Of a stretch of 64,000 nucleotides of DNA, positions 7,051 through 49,424 are shown piece by piece. This DNA is from Candidatus Woesearchaeota archaeon (GTDB taxonomy: Archaea > Nanobdellota > Nanobdellia > Woesearchaeales > ARS49). The notes below the pieces were generated by a model, which did no database searches, had not been told where the DNA came from, and saw nothing but the letters and a program-made list of their open reading frames with translations. The number at the start of each line of letters is the position of its first letter. The stretch's first letter is position 1. The stretch is from contig JASMHM010000002.1 in NCBI GenBank assembly GCA_030750765.1, positions 124,001-188,000 on the forward strand, given 5' to 3'. Made by a program: the position numbers and the translations under genes.

Positions 7051-7726
7051 GATACGCCTCCAGCACTTTTGGATTGCTTCTTACTTGTTTGGGTGTGCCT
7101 TCCATTAACAACTTTCCTTCGTTCAAAACAATGACGTGGTCTGAGATGCTCATGACAAAATCCATGTCGTGTTCTATGAAGAGGACAGTTTTTCCTTCCT
7201 TTCTAAGATCTGTGAGAATCTTTTTCATCTCTTGGCGTATTTGCGGGTTCACGCCTGCGGTTGGCTCGTCCAACATCAAGAACGTGTGAGGTAGGAGCAT
7301 GGATCGGGCTAGTTCGAGCAACCTTCCTTGTCCGTAGGATAGTTCGCCGGCTATATGGTCTAGGAATCCTTGTAGGCGTACTTTGGAGAGGGCTATCTTA
7401 AGCTTGTCATCGGTTGTCTCTTGTGCTAGTTTGAGGTTATCGCGCACTGTCATGTTTTTGAACGTTCTCGTCATTTGGAATGTTCTAGATATCCCTTTTC
7501 TGGCTCGTTCGTGGACTTTTAGCGTAGTAATGTCTTCTCCGTTGAAACTTACCTTGCCTGCATCGCTTGGTAGTGTTCCACTGATCATGTTGAATAAAGT
7601 CGTTTTCCCTGCTCCGTTTGGTCCGATTAAGGCAGTTATTTTTCCTTTGGGAATCTTGATGGAGCAGTTGCTGACTGCGTGCACTCCACCGAAGCTTTTG
7701 CTCATGTTCTTTGCTTGGAGCATCAT
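7040..7726 (-). CDS. livG: Branched-chain amino acid ABC transporter ATP-binding protein LivG
   Basis: 228 residues. Second ATPase of the Liv transporter. Walker A IGPNGAGKTTLFN, signature LSYGQGRLLELARSM, Walker B LMLDEPTAGVNP and the switch histidine in FIEHDMDFVM are present. Slightly shorter than usual LivG because the loop before the signature is compact. Overlaps livM by 4 nt (ATGA type) and livF by 11 nt, indicating one transcript. Confidence 0.93.
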   Translation of the reverse strand: MMLQAKNMSKSFGGVHAVSNCSIKIPKGKITALIGPNGAGKTTLFNMISGTLPSDAGKVSFNGEDITTLKVHERARKGISRTFQMTRTFKNMTVRDNLKLAQETTDDKLKIALSKVRLQGFLDHIAGELSYGQGRLLELARSMLLPHTFLMLDEPTAGVNPQIRQEMKKILTDLRKEGKTVLFIEHDMDFVMSISDHVIVLNEGKLLMEGTPKQVRSNPKVLEAYLGK

Positions 7727-8571
7727 TCTAAGTCCACCTTCCCTAAGAGTCCTCGTGGTTTGTAGAGTACGATAAGCAATAGTAATAATGCAAATATCAT
7801 GGCGCGCATGGGCCCCACTAATGAGCTGGGGAAGCCGATGAATCGTAAGGGTTCTGGCAGTAATACAAGGATGAGTGCTCCTAGTATGCTTCCTTCTAGG
7901 CTTGCTAGCCCTCCAACAATAAGCATGCTGAGGAGTAAGATTAACTCGTTGATGCTGAAAACGCTAGGATCTATGAAGGTGATGTAGTGTGCGTAAAAGG
8001 CTCCTGCAAGGCCAGCAATGCCTGCGCTGATGGCTAGACAGAGTATTTTGTGCTTGAAGACATCCTTTCCTAGTGTTGCTGCTGCTACTTCATCATCTCG
8101 TACTGCTTGCAACACCCTTCCGGTTGGTGTGCTGACGAACCATTTTAGGATGAGGTAGACTACTAATACCAGGGCGAGTAGGCTTACCACGATCATGGTG
8201 TTGCTGCCCATCCTTTGGATGCCTGCAATGCCTAGGGCGCCTCTTGTCAGACTAATCCAGTTTCTTGCTATGCTTCCGCAAATGAACGTGAAGCCTAGTG
8301 TTGCCAGTGCTAAGTAATCCCCTCTTAGCTTTCCACAAGGTAATGCTAGTAGTGTTCCTGCTGCTGCAGCAAGGATGACTGCTAAGGGTATAGAGATTGC
8401 TAAGGGCATGTGTGGGCTAAGTATTGCAGTGACGTACGCACCTATACCAAAGAAGGCGATGTGGCCTAGGTTCAACAATCCTGTGTAGCCCACAGTAAGG
8501 TTCAAGCTTAATGTCAGTAATGCATACATGCCAAACATGATTCCTAGGTGGATGAAGTAAGCACTGATCAT
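7723..8571 (-). CDS. livM: Branched-chain amino acid ABC transporter permease LivM
   Basis: 282 residues with about eight hydrophobic segments. The N-terminal LNLTVGYTGLLNLGHIAFFG is the family hallmark, and GGLASLEGSILGALILVLLP near the C-terminus is the cytoplasmic loop that docks to the ATPases. Sits in the membrane with LivH. Overlaps livH by 4 nt. Confidence 0.92.
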   Translation of the reverse strand: MISAYFIHLGIMFGMYALLTLSLNLTVGYTGLLNLGHIAFFGIGAYVTAILSPHMPLAISIPLAVILAAAAGTLLALPCGKLRGDYLALATLGFTFICGSIARNWISLTRGALGIAGIQRMGSNTMIVVSLLALVLVVYLILKWFVSTPTGRVLQAVRDDEVAAATLGKDVFKHKILCLAISAGIAGLAGAFYAHYITFIDPSVFSINELILLLSMLIVGGLASLEGSILGALILVLLPEPLRFIGFPSSLVGPMRAMIFALLLLLIVLYKPRGLLGKVDLE

Positions 8572-42833: not shown

Positions 42834-42892
42834 ACCCCTTACTCCTATTCATGTTGTTATTCAAGAGTCATAGTCGAAGCTTGTATATAAAT

Positions 42893-43435
42893 ATGTCGAT
42901 GGAAATGGAGGGGTTAATAAAGGCGCGGTCACTTGCCCATACTATGTCTTCCACCATACGCTTGACCACGCAACATCATTCCACTCTTGACCAAGAGACT
43001 CGATTGGTGGCGGTGAAGGAGGTCGTAGACATCACCCAAGATTGGGGAACAGTATTGTTCAAGCCAGAAGGATTGTTTATCAACAGGCGCCCTTGCGATT
43101 TTGCCGTGATTGCCCACGAAAAGCGGGTGAAGGCACCAGGATTTGTGGACGTACCCTTGCTCAAGGCGAAGGGCGACGACCTTGTCTCTGCCGCTCTGGC
43201 ATGTGAGCCAGACCACCAACGAACAGGGGCGGAAGTATTCTTGGTGCGCTCTCCTGGAAATCCCCGCCCACAAGTGTACTCGCGACAGGAAAAATGCGGC
43301 AATGCTTCTTACAAACCTCTCACCCTTCTTCATTCTACCATAGAACAACTGTGTGCTAAGAGACCTTCGTTGGAAGCAGACTTGCGCGCGGTTGCACCTC
43401 TAGGCCACGAGGTAGACTTTATCCAGTATGTCTGA
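42893..43435 (+). CDS. Protein of unknown function inserted between rpl21e-operon genes
   Basis: 180 residues if started at 42893; ATGs at 42905 and 42944 are alternatives, and the TATA box (TGTATATAAAT, about 42881-42891) would favour one of the later ones. LVAVKEVVDITQDWGTVLFK and FVDVPLLKAKGDDLVSAALA look like a compact alpha/beta protein. Its 3' end overlaps the convergent PIN-like gene by 36 nt. No family recognised. Confidence 0.55.
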   Translation: MSMEMEGLIKARSLAHTMSSTIRLTTQHHSTLDQETRLVAVKEVVDITQDWGTVLFKPEGLFINRRPCDFAVIAHEKRVKAPGFVDVPLLKAKGDDLVSAALACEPDHQRTGAEVFLVRSPGNPRPQVYSRQEKCGNASYKPLTLLHSTIEQLCAKRPSLEADLRAVAPLGHEVDFIQYV

Positions 43436-44461
43436 CGTGTGCACATACACGTTGACACCATGTCTTCTTCGTAATTCAATCGCAATCTCTCTCAAACCGG
43501 CATCGTTGGAGAGTATGATGGTTTGCCTTGAGCCTCTTTGAAGTGCGCGAGCCAACAGGTACAGATCTGCGCCTTGCTTCATGGCACCCCATGTTTCCTT
43601 TGTCGGTCCATGACTCTGCTCCCAAAGGCCGTGGATGATCTTTTCTTGTTCAGGAGTCAGCGTGACCTGTAGCTCAGTAGAAAGTCGCTGTAGTTCTTGG
43701 ACAAACCATCGTTTGTCCCTGATTCTCCACCCTTGGTGTTCCATCTCCTTTTTCACCCTGCCAAGCAGCACTAGTTTTCTTGGTTGAAAATCAAGCGTGA
43801 ACTTGGTTGTGTCTTTCTTTTGCATGGACTCTTGACAACGGTCCATGAGTACGTTGGCGAAGTCAGTGTCCAAGAGAAACTCTACGTCCTCTCCAACGCC
43901 CCACTGCTCAAAGTCCTCCCCAAAGCTTAAGGATATGTTTATTGGTGTATCCGGGTTGTTGGCTAGGCCTTCGTATGCCATCTCCAAGGCCTCCTGAATG
44001 GTGGACAATAAGAAGAGTTCTTTCTGTGCATGCGCGAGCAGCGTGTTAAGGTTGTTGGAACGCTCAAGTTTGGTGAGAGTCTTGTCGGTGAGCGTGACTT
44101 TGAGCTCTGGAATGCTTGGTTGTGAGGCCCAAGGTCCTTCGTCAAGATCCTTGGCGGTTGATCGCAGCATTGCCACCTCCTCTTTGATGACCTCCTTTGA
44201 GGCCCAACTGTTTGCGAGCGTTATCACGTTAGCCAAGAACCTTTTTTGTTTCCTGGAGGGGGTTGCACCCACGGACGCCCACATAATGCTGACGGTTTTA
44301 AACTCAGTTTCTATCCCCGAATCAAAAGTCGCACCCCCCTTTGTCAGAGCATTTGTCAGCTTTCCTCTGAGGACACGCATGACGCCCACGCGTGCTCCGA
44401 TTTCCTGGGTGACCTCTTCTAATGCAATTGTGATGAGGTTGTATTTTTTGGTGTCTACCAC
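43400..44461 (-). CDS. Helical protein with C-terminal PIN-like nuclease domain
   Basis: 353 residues. The first 200 are helical with no known motif. The last 150 look PIN-like: RKLVLLGRVKKEMEHQGW, then KQGADLYLLARALQRGSRQT and ILSNDAGLREIAIELRRRHG, the usual acid-rich strand order of PIN folds. It would be an RNase in the rpl21e-rpoF operon, consistent with a role in RNA metabolism (inference). It lies 25 nt after rpoF. Confidence 0.6.
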   Translation of the reverse strand: MVDTKKYNLITIALEEVTQEIGARVGVMRVLRGKLTNALTKGGATFDSGIETEFKTVSIMWASVGATPSRKQKRFLANVITLANSWASKEVIKEEVAMLRSTAKDLDEGPWASQPSIPELKVTLTDKTLTKLERSNNLNTLLAHAQKELFLLSTIQEALEMAYEGLANNPDTPINISLSFGEDFEQWGVGEDVEFLLDTDFANVLMDRCQESMQKKDTTKFTLDFQPRKLVLLGRVKKEMEHQGWRIRDKRWFVQELQRLSTELQVTLTPEQEKIIHGLWEQSHGPTKETWGAMKQGADLYLLARALQRGSRQTIILSNDAGLREIAIELRRRHGVNVYVHTSDILDKVYLVA

Positions 44462-45694: not shown

Positions 45695-46102
45695 ATGGGC
45701 ATTTTTGACAGTTTAAAAGACAAACTCGGGGGAAGCAATTTCGACGAGCTGGAAGCAGAAGAAGAATACTTAGAATTAGACAACGCAGGAGCAATTGACA
45801 AAGGTAAGATCACGGTTCACCCGTTTCTCTTAGAAGAATTTGATGACATTAAGGGAGTTCTTGACAGCTTACGAGCAGGACAGACTATTGCGCTCGTAAA
45901 CATCAAGCCTCTCAAGGATAGAGATCTTGTAGAGTTGAAAAGAGCCATCAACAAGCTCAAGAAAACCACTGACGCTATCGAAGGAGAGATTGCAGGCTTT
46001 GGAGAGGACTACATCGTTGTCACGCCAAGCTTCGCAACAATCCATCGAAGTTCTAAGCAAGTCAAAACTGTGAAAGAAGACGACACGGTTGCTGCTGAAT
46101 AA
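45695..46102 (+). CDS. sepF: Archaeal SepF cell-division protein
   Basis: 135 residues. Starts MGIFDSLKDKLGG, a short amphipathic membrane-binding helix, then an acidic linker and the SepF core KITVHPFLLEEFDDIKGVLD, AGQTIALVNIKPLKDRDLVE and FGEDYIVVTPSFATIH. In archaea SepF anchors FtsZ to the membrane; ftsZ is 5.5 kb away. SD GGAGGG nine bases before the ATG. Confidence 0.92.
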   Translation: MGIFDSLKDKLGGSNFDELEAEEEYLELDNAGAIDKGKITVHPFLLEEFDDIKGVLDSLRAGQTIALVNIKPLKDRDLVELKRAINKLKKTTDAIEGEIAGFGEDYIVVTPSFATIHRSSKQVKTVKEDDTVAAE

Positions 46103-48790
46103 TTATTCGTGATACTGATCTGCGATAGCTGCTGCTAATTTTGGACGAGTCTGCTTTAGCTGTTCTCGCAAGTTTGTACTTCGAAGGCCAGTTTGCGATG
46201 CCAGTGCCGCATCACCTAGATCAAAATCCTTAAAGTCCCAAATCTTGAGTCTCTGCTCCCAGATCGCGCTTTCCTGAGGACCTAACCCTGCAGATTTGTA
46301 CAAATCAGAGCGGTTGATATCGTGAATTTCGTCGTCAGTTAGTGTGGTGGCTAGGGGCCCAACAGAACCTCTTACTCCAAACAACAAGCACAACAGTTTT
46401 CTGTTGGTCAGATACTGCTGTGAATCTCCTGGCCTTGCCAATCTGCCAAAGCACCTTAAGGCATATTCCTTGTTTGCTTCCTGAAAACCACCTAGGATTC
46501 CCCCCATAGGTCGGTTATCGGTGAATACGTGCAGATCTCGAGCGTCTTGCTTTGTGAAAAAATACGTAGCCTTCTGACTAAGAGCATGGTCCATAGCTTC
46601 TAGGGCGCGTCTGCGACCTTGCTGTCCTTGGAATCTGCCGTTGGTACGATACTGCCACTCCTTTGTTTTTCCAGGACACGCAAAATCAACCAGCGCATAC
46701 AAAGAGTTGTCAAAGACCTCCCTCAGCTCACGTTCCAGTAAGGTAGACAAGGATTTTTGGGTGACCTGCACTGCAAATTCGTCCCAAGTGCAACTCTTCT
46801 TGTTCTTAAAATCACGCAGATGCTTGGCAAGACGGAGCCTGTAGAAGCGATCGGTTAGCGGAACACCACCTTCCTCATCTTTGAGGTCGGGGGCGTTTTC
46901 CTCAAAGATCGCACCAAACTCACGAATGACCTCCACACGCAACTTACGACAGGCTATGCCATACTCAATCGCGTATGCCTCGGGGTTTTCTATCTCAGGC
47001 CGCCCATCGAGGTGCCATTCCAGAGCAGTCTTTTGACTCTTGCTGAGGGTGACCCGCGTAAGCATTTCCTCGGCCATGCTGACGTGCTCCCCTAAGTGCT
47101 GAGAGCCTGTGGAAGCGTGACTAGGAAAGAGTGTGCTATCATTATCAGTGATGCGTACGAGCATGGCGACGATTTGTCGGTGTCGATCGTTGAGCTGGAT
47201 ACTTGAATAGAAGGGGCTGTTCAATTTTCGTATTGAACCTGCACCTTTCGACCGCGATGAAGAGGTTGCTATCGCTCGCTTGCCTAGCGAAGTAGGGAGG
47301 CATTCAAACACTTTATCTGTGATTTCGTAATGTTCAAACAGCATGCCCTCCATATGACCGAAGGCTATGCGTTGGCAAGCACCCCCACTCATCAGTCGAT
47401 CATGCTCTTGTTCAGGGAGCAACACATCAGGCAATGCAAAGCATACCATGTCTCGGACGCCCCCATCAAAAACTTCGCGCAGGTAGTACTGGCATGCGGC
47501 ATCTAAATCGACATACCTCAACTGTCGTACAAACTGCTCCCAGTCCCATCCTTTTTGTTCTCGAACATCATCAAGAAGCACCCCCAATCGCACGCCAAAG
47601 TAACGGTCAGCGATAGTTCCTTTCTGACCTTTCCGGGTCTCTCTAGCTGCAGCCATGGGATGTTTTTCATAGGCATCTCGATGAGCCTGTATTGCCGAAA
47701 CCCTCAGTTTGTGGACAATAACCTGCATCGGCGCATCAAGTTGCAAGTCCTCGGTTTCCAAGTACTCGTCCAGACTAACGCGTAAATCTGTCGTCAAGGA
47801 CAAATCATTCACAAAATGTTCAACACTGGTCAAGTGTTCGATCATTTTTGTCCTTGCCGAATCGAACTTTCCAGGAAAGATCTTGCTGTCATTGTCGGTT
47901 ATCAACTTCAGAAGATGGTAAAATTTTCGAGACCGCAACGACAGCTCAAGATATTGCTTTTGAAAGGCAGTATTGGTCACATTGATGCTATGCGGTACTG
48001 CGCCAAGCTCATGGGACCATTCCAAGAATAGTGATCGGTAACCCCTCGCGGCTTTTTGCATTTCTCCAAGAACCTCGTACGAAATCTCATAGTGATGGAA
48101 CTTTACCATACTTTCCATAGCACTCATAGAACGCTGTAGACACATATCGTCATCAATTCTGCCGCGAGCATGATTAACGAGAGCTGCGACGGTGTCAAGC
48201 CCCTTCTCGGTTTTTGCAGCTATTTCTTCATAAGATATGCCAGTAAGCCAAAGATCGAAGACCTTTCTTTCCTCTCCACTAATACGGCGAACCTTGCTGG
48301 CAAATTTTCTCATGGCTTTAGGAACCCTTGAAGGACTCACTCCTCGAAACACTCTTTCAAAGGCCAAATCCGAAAGATTGATATGGTTTGTTCTGAGATT
48401 GTGCATAGCAGCATTGATTCTTTCCCCATATTCATGCATGATTGCGGTCTGCACAGGCCCTAGAGATGTGTCAGAAAGGAATATGGCCTCAGAGATTTCA
48501 TGCGTGGGTCTCGCTTTACGCCCATCCCTGCCTAACGTGGCGCGCTTATGATCAATTATCTTGTTGTCCAACGACCTTGACAGGAAAGTACCCACCTGCG
48601 GGATATCGCTGTCTTTACCATCGTGCAACCGCTTCATAAAGGTCATGAGAAGATCTTGTGGGATGTCCTCCGCGTCAATTGGCGGGATACCTCGTCTCCG
48701 AGCTAACCGGTAGAGATATCCCGTGATGGCAAGCCCACCCACGGTAGTTGTGGGATCATGAAAGTGCTCAATCATCTGACTGAGCTTCAT
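46103..48790 (-). CDS. Giant sigma-70-like protein with a duplicated C-terminal module
   Basis: 895 residues from the ATG at 48790; the frame is open to 48961, but that overlaps the ZPR1 gene, so 48790 or a GTG at 48817 is likelier. Numbering by the open frame (952): sigma region 2-like segment about 78-145 (DAEDIPQDLLMTFMKRL; TFLSRSLDNKIIDHKR), then a region 4-like HTH about 225-270 (SGEERKVFDLWLTGISYEEI; LDTVAALVNHARGRI). Residues about 289-512 and 543-764 are two copies of one module (HYEI; ITDNDS; KLRV; DRYFGVRL/DRFYRLRL; REVFD). A last helical region follows. Archaea normally use TBP/TFB, so a sigma-like DNA-binding protein is striking. Its partner is unknown. Confidence 0.7.
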   Translation of the reverse strand: MKLSQMIEHFHDPTTTVGGLAITGYLYRLARRRGIPPIDAEDIPQDLLMTFMKRLHDGKDSDIPQVGTFLSRSLDNKIIDHKRATLGRDGRKARPTHEISEAIFLSDTSLGPVQTAIMHEYGERINAAMHNLRTNHINLSDLAFERVFRGVSPSRVPKAMRKFASKVRRISGEERKVFDLWLTGISYEEIAAKTEKGLDTVAALVNHARGRIDDDMCLQRSMSAMESMVKFHHYEISYEVLGEMQKAARGYRSLFLEWSHELGAVPHSINVTNTAFQKQYLELSLRSRKFYHLLKLITDNDSKIFPGKFDSARTKMIEHLTSVEHFVNDLSLTTDLRVSLDEYLETEDLQLDAPMQVIVHKLRVSAIQAHRDAYEKHPMAAARETRKGQKGTIADRYFGVRLGVLLDDVREQKGWDWEQFVRQLRYVDLDAACQYYLREVFDGGVRDMVCFALPDVLLPEQEHDRLMSGGACQRIAFGHMEGMLFEHYEITDKVFECLPTSLGKRAIATSSSRSKGAGSIRKLNSPFYSSIQLNDRHRQIVAMLVRITDNDSTLFPSHASTGSQHLGEHVSMAEEMLTRVTLSKSQKTALEWHLDGRPEIENPEAYAIEYGIACRKLRVEVIREFGAIFEENAPDLKDEEGGVPLTDRFYRLRLAKHLRDFKNKKSCTWDEFAVQVTQKSLSTLLERELREVFDNSLYALVDFACPGKTKEWQYRTNGRFQGQQGRRRALEAMDHALSQKATYFFTKQDARDLHVFTDNRPMGGILGGFQEANKEYALRCFGRLARPGDSQQYLTNRKLLCLLFGVRGSVGPLATTLTDDEIHDINRSDLYKSAGLGPQESAIWEQRLKIWDFKDFDLGDAALASQTGLRSTNLREQLKQTRPKLAAAIADQYHE

Positions 48791-48905
48791 CTCCAAATGT
48801 CCAATTTCACCACCCACGATCCCAAGATTATACCGCCTCAGCTTAAAAACATTTGGGGAATGGGCTTGCCAAACCTTTTTATACTGAATTTCTTCTTTAG
48901 AGGGA

Positions 48906-49424
48906 ATGGAAACAGTCAAAGACCAACCTTGCATGATGTGCATGGACAAGAAAGGGCTCACCTTGACGCAGGATGAGACAGAGGTTCCCTATTTTGGCAA
49001 GGTTTTCGTGTTTTCCATGAGTTGCAGCAAATGCAAGTACAGCAAATCAGATATTGAGGTAGAAAAGCAACGCGAAGGAGCCAAATACACGTTTGAGGTG
49101 GCAAGCAAAGAAGATCTCAAGGTTAGAGTTATCCGAAGCAGCGAAGGAAGTGTGGATATTCCTCGCATAGGAAGCATAGAACCTGGCGAGAACGCAGAAG
49201 GGTTTGTGAGCAACGTTGAAGGGGTGTTGCAACGCTTTCAAAAACAAGTAGAACACCTACGAGACAGTGCAGACGATATTAAGGACAGGAAAAAAGCAAA
49301 GAACCTGTTGAAGAAAATACAAAAAGTGTTGTGGGGAGAGGAAAGCATCACTATTTCTATCAAAGACAAAAGTGGAAATTCAGCCATTGTTTCTGACAAA
49401 GCAAAAGTTGAGAAAGTTAAATAG
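48906..49424 (+). CDS. ZPR1 zinc-finger protein
   Basis: 172 residues, a single ZPR1 module as in other archaea. CMMCMDKKGLTLTQDETEVP then FGKVFVFSMSCSKCKYSKSD is the four-cysteine zinc finger, followed by the beta-rich half (RVIRSSEGSVDIPRIGSIEP). In eukaryotes ZPR1 assists eEF1A folding; the archaeal role is not settled. TATA CTTTTTATAC about 27 nt before the ATG; divergent from the sigma-like gene. Confidence 0.9.
   Translation: METVKDQPCMMCMDKKGLTLTQDETEVPYFGKVFVFSMSCSKCKYSKSDIEVEKQREGAKYTFEVASKEDLKVRVIRSSEGSVDIPRIGSIEPGENAEGFVSNVEGVLQRFQKQVEHLRDSADDIKDRKKAKNLLKKIQKVLWGEESITISIKDKSGNSAIVSDKAKVEKVK

Follow-up and report, generated by a model that had tools for sequence, protein, structure and literature searches.

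The reverse strand of the analysed window, a stretch of 64,000 nucleotides from a woesearchaeal contig, encodes an 895-aa sigma-like protein, P0001 (46103..48790, stop included), that is a true member of the sigma-70 superfamily. Its sigma part is ECF-like, made up of regions 2 and 4 only, and is followed by a long tail that is, by profile comparison, a conserved unit common to sigma-like proteins from three families. Sigma-70 itself was already known in this lineage, and the shared tail is the new part: as far as our tools show, a partly duplicated tail of helix-turn-helix (HTH) units and DUF4046-like repeats on two kinds of sigma is undescribed in the open-access literature. Present on both kinds and related to repeats that stand behind other heads, the tail offers a concrete domain for study. 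From the sequence comparisons and the structural model, P0001 is best read as a resident chromosomal, fast-evolving, promoter-selective factor, predicted to dock on polymerase by region 2 and to contact DNA through region 4 and the tail, a reading to which we give about an even chance (roughly 0.5).

The sigma part of P0001

The open frame covers 46103-48961 on the reverse strand, and the ATG at 48790 is its likely start, which gives 895 residues. Counted from this ATG, the segments that a sequence-only reading of the window had compared with sigma regions 2 and 4 (numbered there as residues 78-145 and 225-270) are residues 21-88 and 168-213. P0001 is a real protein, because the same order of parts recurs at 25-27% identity in a relative from the same genus (genome G001, Candidatus Woesearchaeota archaeon ARS49, contig NYZT01000021.1; L034:5162-8995, 1278 aa) and in one from another family (genome G083; L101:5109-7301, 731 aa). 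A scan of genome contigs for homologues with P0001 alone gave no match, and an alignment was required to detect the relatives. EF-hand, AMMECR1, endosulfine and neuropeptide matches were sub-threshold and were set aside as chance.

Region 2 was found as three helices at residues 22-92 (48515..48727, reverse strand; helices 22-32, 37-56 and 66-92 in the model), where Pfam PF04542 (Sigma70_r2) matched residues 26-84 with 27.0 bits, above its cut-off of 24. Region 4, an HTH at residues 165-213 (48152..48298, reverse strand), was placed by the span of TIGR02937, the s4 profile and fold superposition; Pfam PF08281 alone was weak here, scoring 12.1 bits, under its cut-off. TIGR02937 (sigma70-ECF) covered both regions, residues 26-212, with an E-value of 5.2e-9 and 35.9 bits, which does not reach the curated cut-off of 42.9; the G083 relative reaches it with 56.8 bits. 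A profile of archaeal ECFs, made from 15 proteins of ECF size encoded in genomes of this order, matched residues 24-216, and its region 4 portion alone matched the HTH at 178-212. Region 3 (Sigma70_r3) gave no Pfam match in P0001, and the model consists of region 2, a linker and region 4.

In the AlphaFold2 model of residues 1-235, pLDDT values were mostly 84-94 for the helices of region 2 and mostly 86-97 for those of region 4. The PDB chains closest to this model were ECF sigmas. Most of the ten best belonged to M. tuberculosis initiation complexes, with ECF or related sigmas, free or bound to an anti-sigma, filling the rest of the top 20. The model superposed on region 4 of sigma-E bound to -35 DNA at 1.1 A over 58 columns. 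Because the alignment used for the model contained ECF sigmas picked by profile, the fold match supports the ancestry without being independent proof of it, and it is the profile scores that carry the proof. These results uphold the sigma-70 ancestry proposed from the letters alone and speak for the region 4-like HTH, and the suggested comparison with sigma-70 profiles and structures returned ECF sigmas.

The bacterial ECF sigmas (TIGR02937; M. tuberculosis SigH, SigE and SigL; E. coli sigma-E) have, like P0001 as read here, regions 2 and 4 and neither 1.1 nor 3; they also share the AED..Q(D/E) motif and are its best fold matches. P0001 differs from them in its archaeal host with TBP and TFB, its longer linker, its tail of about 680 residues and its sub-threshold curated score. 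No anti-sigma is known for it either, and the genes adjoining it, sepF and a ZPR1-like gene, include no obvious candidate. Some ECF sigmas reportedly carry a regulatory domain fused at the C terminus, for example SigJ/ECF41, with a SnoaL-like domain, and ECF42, with TPRs. In these the sigma part is likewise N-terminal and a large C-terminal domain tunes activity, whereas the tail of P0001 appears to be made of partly duplicated HTH and DUF4046-like repeats and is not SnoaL-like or TPR by Pfam.

The C-terminal tail and its relatives

Two copies of a module of 220-240 residues follow region 4. Copy 1 occupies residues 223-466 (47393..48124, reverse strand; 81 bits with the family profile), and copy 2 occupies residues 477-714 (46649..47362, reverse strand), where an ITDND segment is followed by a probable HTH and then by a DUF4046-like repeat. 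The sequence-only reading had described such a duplication, and local alignment of the two copies, which are 29% identical, confirmed it with a score of 212, compared with a mean of 32 (SD 5.2) and a maximum of 61 for 1000 shuffled sequences (z about 35). The relatives in G001 and G083 each appear to be single-copy, so the doubling looks specific to P0001.

The DUF4046-like helical repeat, with the pattern 'NS..A...A.P...K.W.F...W.G..G', lies within and after copy 2 at residues 678-741 (46568..46759, reverse strand; 22.4 bits with the repeat profile). The C-terminal domain, residues 715-895 (46106..46648, reverse strand), has conserved NRKLL..LF and W..R...W motifs (alignments A3 and A6) and includes a sigma4-like HTH at residues 849-894 (46109..46246, reverse strand). 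This terminal HTH falls on region 4 when the tail profile is aligned to the ECF profile by hhalign (E 0.006), and in L115 the equivalent HTH is recognised by Pfam Sigma70_r4_2. Each copy of the module probably holds a sigma4-like HTH as well; the copies alone give no score, and the assignment comes through the G032 protein, whose segment LSEEERIYLEKYIELKSYKAVSKELSVPLYRIEQ matches the sigma4 profile weakly (8.1 bits) and is placed by hhalign opposite LSKSQKTALEWHLDGR...YGIACRKLRVEVI in P0001. The tail therefore appears, from these profile matches, to combine HTH units, the last of them sigma4-like, with a DUF4046-like helical repeat that is also found behind other heads. Given this composition it is probably a DNA-reading or partner-binding array, and the module that had previously been called unknown is thereby placed in part.

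Neither P0001 nor its pieces matched DUF4046 (PF13255) at the gathering cut-off, and the link to this family runs through the repeat profile built here, at 22 bits. The repeat 'NS..A...AYP...K.W.F...W.G..G' is present in the P0001 tail and in L102, L103, L116 and L117. In the P0001 tail this helical repeat lies between the HTHs; it is located behind HTH heads in L102 and L116, and in L117 (5622-6815) the repeat type reaches PF13255 with an E-value of 2.8e-14. The Pfam model was positive in only 3 of the 288 genomes of the order and so lacks the breadth needed to map the repeat, and no paper on DUF4046 was found in the open-access literature. In the archaeal proteins encoded at L117:5622-6818, L116:5994-7553 and L103:5786-7087, an HTH or another kind of head precedes three to five clean repeats of the DUF4046 type. 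The tail was also modelled (pLDDT 77, pTM 0.68), and a fold search with this model returned nothing confident. Single sigma4 domains recurred in this search at a probability of 0.44-0.66, a weak sign of HTHs, and the top-ranked matches, farnesyl pyrophosphate synthases, were rejected as helical-bundle noise (probability <=0.04).

The phyletic search that had been proposed for the repeat, once run, yielded relatives in G001, G083 and G032. A profile of P0001 and G001 detected the G083 protein with an E-value of 1.9e-37, and with G083 added the profile detected the G032 protein with an E-value of 5.7e-7, before that protein had entered the profile. The G032 protein (999 aa) contains sigma regions 2, 3 and 4, with regions 3 and 4 above the Pfam cut-offs and region 2 under, and has a further HTH of sigma4 type towards its C terminus (Sigma70_r4_2, residues 765-801). 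Its tail is homologous to that of P0001 over the whole stretch that begins with the ITDND segment and ends at the final residue (355 columns, hhalign E 6.9e-7). The tail is fused to an ECF-like sigma in P0001, G001 and G083 and to a sigma2-3-4 protein in G032. The sigma part of the G001 copy is too degenerate for Pfam detection, and the full-length MAFFT alignments A1, A5 and A7, which misplace the sigma parts of the relatives, were not used for conclusions on them.

The G001 protein has about 640 extra residues N-terminal of the sigma part (L034:7080-8995), absent from P0001 and with no Pfam or NCBIfam match. Near the sigma-like gene of G083, L101:3052-4170 and 7485-8549 encode secreted-looking proteins of similar size with no Pfam match, which are possible targets, and a response-regulator-like protein is encoded at L101:1228-1755.

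The locus, the host genome and sigma-70 in the phylum

The host genome is woesearchaeal (1.14 Mb, 98.7% complete) and encodes TBP, TFB (L118:2630-3553, 307 aa, identified by eye) and an archaeal RNA polymerase with one Rpo1N. P0001 lies between a convergent sepF (45695..46102, forward strand; Pfam SepF, 37.9 bits), which has the same position in G001, and a divergent ZPR1-like zinc-finger gene (48906..49424, forward strand; Pfam jr-ZPR1 and Zn_ribbon_ZPR1). Further genes nearby encode Rpb4, for which the Pfam match is weak, and L21e and aIF2-gamma (both by eye). The gene has the same nearest neighbours in its own genome and in G001, in other words in both species of the genus, where the chromosomal site is stable. 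The position at sepF is kept in these two species only and not family-wide; in the other genera of the family the gene is absent there, and the sepF-ZPR1 interval holds different genes or is empty.

ECF sigma factors are a bacterial hallmark, which might suggest that a bacterial contaminant had been binned with the archaeon. This is extremely improbable, because archaeal genes flank the gene on both sides on a single 226-kb contig, the same neighbours are found in an independently assembled woesearchaeal relative, and mis-binning of woesearchaeal sigmas is reported as excluded in the available text of PMC8204110. A second suggestion, already raised in the sequence-only reading, is that P0001 serves a virus or mobile element integrated in the archaeon, and its patchy distribution, its fast divergence and the changing content of the sepF-ZPR1 interval in other genera would agree with this. 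The suggestion is nevertheless improbable: the site, among sepF, Rpb4, L21e and the ZPR1-like gene, is the same in both species of the genus, the neighbours are core genes in G000, G001 and G032 (PolB, diphthine synthase and a Nop5-like protein, by eye), and searches of viral contigs (IMG/VR), phages and plasmids turned up no relative of P0001 as a whole or of the tail.

Between the window and G001, sepF is 94% identical and the sigma-like protein 25-27%. The idea that such fast divergence is peculiar to the P0001 gene was rejected, as its neighbours at 42851-43435 and 43400-44461 are equally diverged, with 22-29% identity to their sister-species counterparts compared with 87-95% for housekeeping neighbours. 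Neither of these two neighbours has a Pfam match, and the final stretch of the 43400-44461 product resembles a PIN-type nuclease (by eye).

Sigma70_r2 was matched in 102 of the 288 genomes of the order at E <= 0.001 and in 123 of the 371 genomes of the phylum at E <= 1e-4, with no match in the four archaeal control genomes in either search. Open frames at the order-wide matches ranged from 166 to 1763 codons (median 427, among the matches listed). Both ECF-type and RpoD-type sigmas are abundant in the order, and many are canonical (for example L038, L120 DDAEDVVQDVFFKAF). The view that sigma-like proteins are only sporadic in archaea is therefore wrong for this lineage. The available text of Castelle et al. 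2021 (PMC8204110) already names woesearchaeal sigma-70 (fam00359), stating that they are common among Woesearchaeota, that mis-binning had been excluded and that no anti-sigma factor was found in DPANN; since this was briefly stated there, a sigma factor in a woesearchaeal archaeon is not new. P0001 shares the lineage and superfamily of fam00359, for which that text reports no anti-sigma, and differs in that fam00359 is named there in a few sentences, with no architecture of the P0001 type described.

One genome of the order, G096, encodes a 1741-aa protein (L035:2316-7541) that ends in a canonical RpoD-type sigma of 260 residues, and the roughly 1480 residues before it look repetitive by eye. 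Further RpoD-type sigmas of the order likewise have long N-terminal extensions.

Predicted role in transcription

To our knowledge, sigma and TBP/TFB are held to be two mutually exclusive routes of transcription start. As about one third of the sampled genomes of the phylum have Sigma70_r2 genes, and as the host here also has TBP and TFB, the lineage is a natural test of whether sigma can act on an archaeal polymerase.

The bacterial partner of region 2.2 is the clamp coiled coil of beta'. The AEDIPQD segment of P0001 at residues 40-46 (48653..48673, reverse strand) aligns at region 2.2, which we take to be the position of the clamp-docking motif for bacterial RNA polymerase. D42 is D in 21 of the 23 aligned sequences, Q45 is Q in 15 of the 23, and P0001 keeps the clamp-docking residues D42, Q45 and D46 (AED..QD). 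Because this motif is kept and the clamp coiled coil is present in archaeal polymerase, polymerase docking by region 2 is favoured. In the promoter-selective factor, region 2 would bind the archaeal RNA polymerase at its clamp coiled coil, region 4 and the additional HTHs of the tail would contact upstream DNA, and the polymerase would thereby be held at a limited number of promoters. We know of no counterpart in archaeal polymerase of the bacterial flap-tip helix, which holds region 4, so the long tail may make up for a DNA affinity that region 4 would not have by itself. In archaea, TFE binds the polymerase at its clamp coiled coil (PMC7289017).

Several findings count against this reading. 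The region 4 Pfam and TIGR02937 scores are below cut-offs, the Rpo1N clamp coiled coil of the host looks ordinary archaeal by eye, without sign of sigma adaptation, the sigma part in G001 is degenerate, and Pro44 of P0001 is absent from the other 22 aligned sequences. P0001 may instead be a sigma-derived DNA-binding regulator that no longer touches RNA polymerase and works as an activator or repressor beside TBP and TFB, with the sigma part kept as an HTH and DNA-binding helices and the tail adding HTHs. This is a real possibility, if one short of an even chance. The weak region 4 and Pro44 speak for it, as does the G001 sigma domain, whose invisibility to Pfam would fit a lost polymerase-binding role; so do L102, L116 and L117, in which repeats resembling the tail follow an ordinary HTH or another head, and the fast divergence (27%, compared with 94% for sepF). 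However, the D..Q(D/E) clamp motif is retained, region 2 in sigmas binds single-strand DNA and polymerase, and many fully canonical sigmas occur in the same order. The earlier proposal, that a protein derived from sigma has become a large regulator, comes close to the best reading.

In a stronger form of the favoured reading, which is possible but doubtful, P0001 would initiate on the archaeal polymerase from promoters of its own and with no need of TBP/TFB, the repeated HTHs of the tail replacing the flap-tip contact; if this were true, woesearchaea would run two initiation systems with one polymerase. Archaeal TFB is comparable as an initiation factor with HTH-bearing DNA-binding domains, and the sigma profile weakly matches a TFB-size frame in every genome of the family, which in the host genome is read as TFB. 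In contrast to TFB, P0001 has no Zn ribbon or cyclin folds, and the host has a separate TFB.

The region 2.2 clamp motif of RpoD-type sigmas has its glutamine in most of those read from other families, and not in L046, L047 and L050 (G004, G014 and G015), which belong to the family of P0001.
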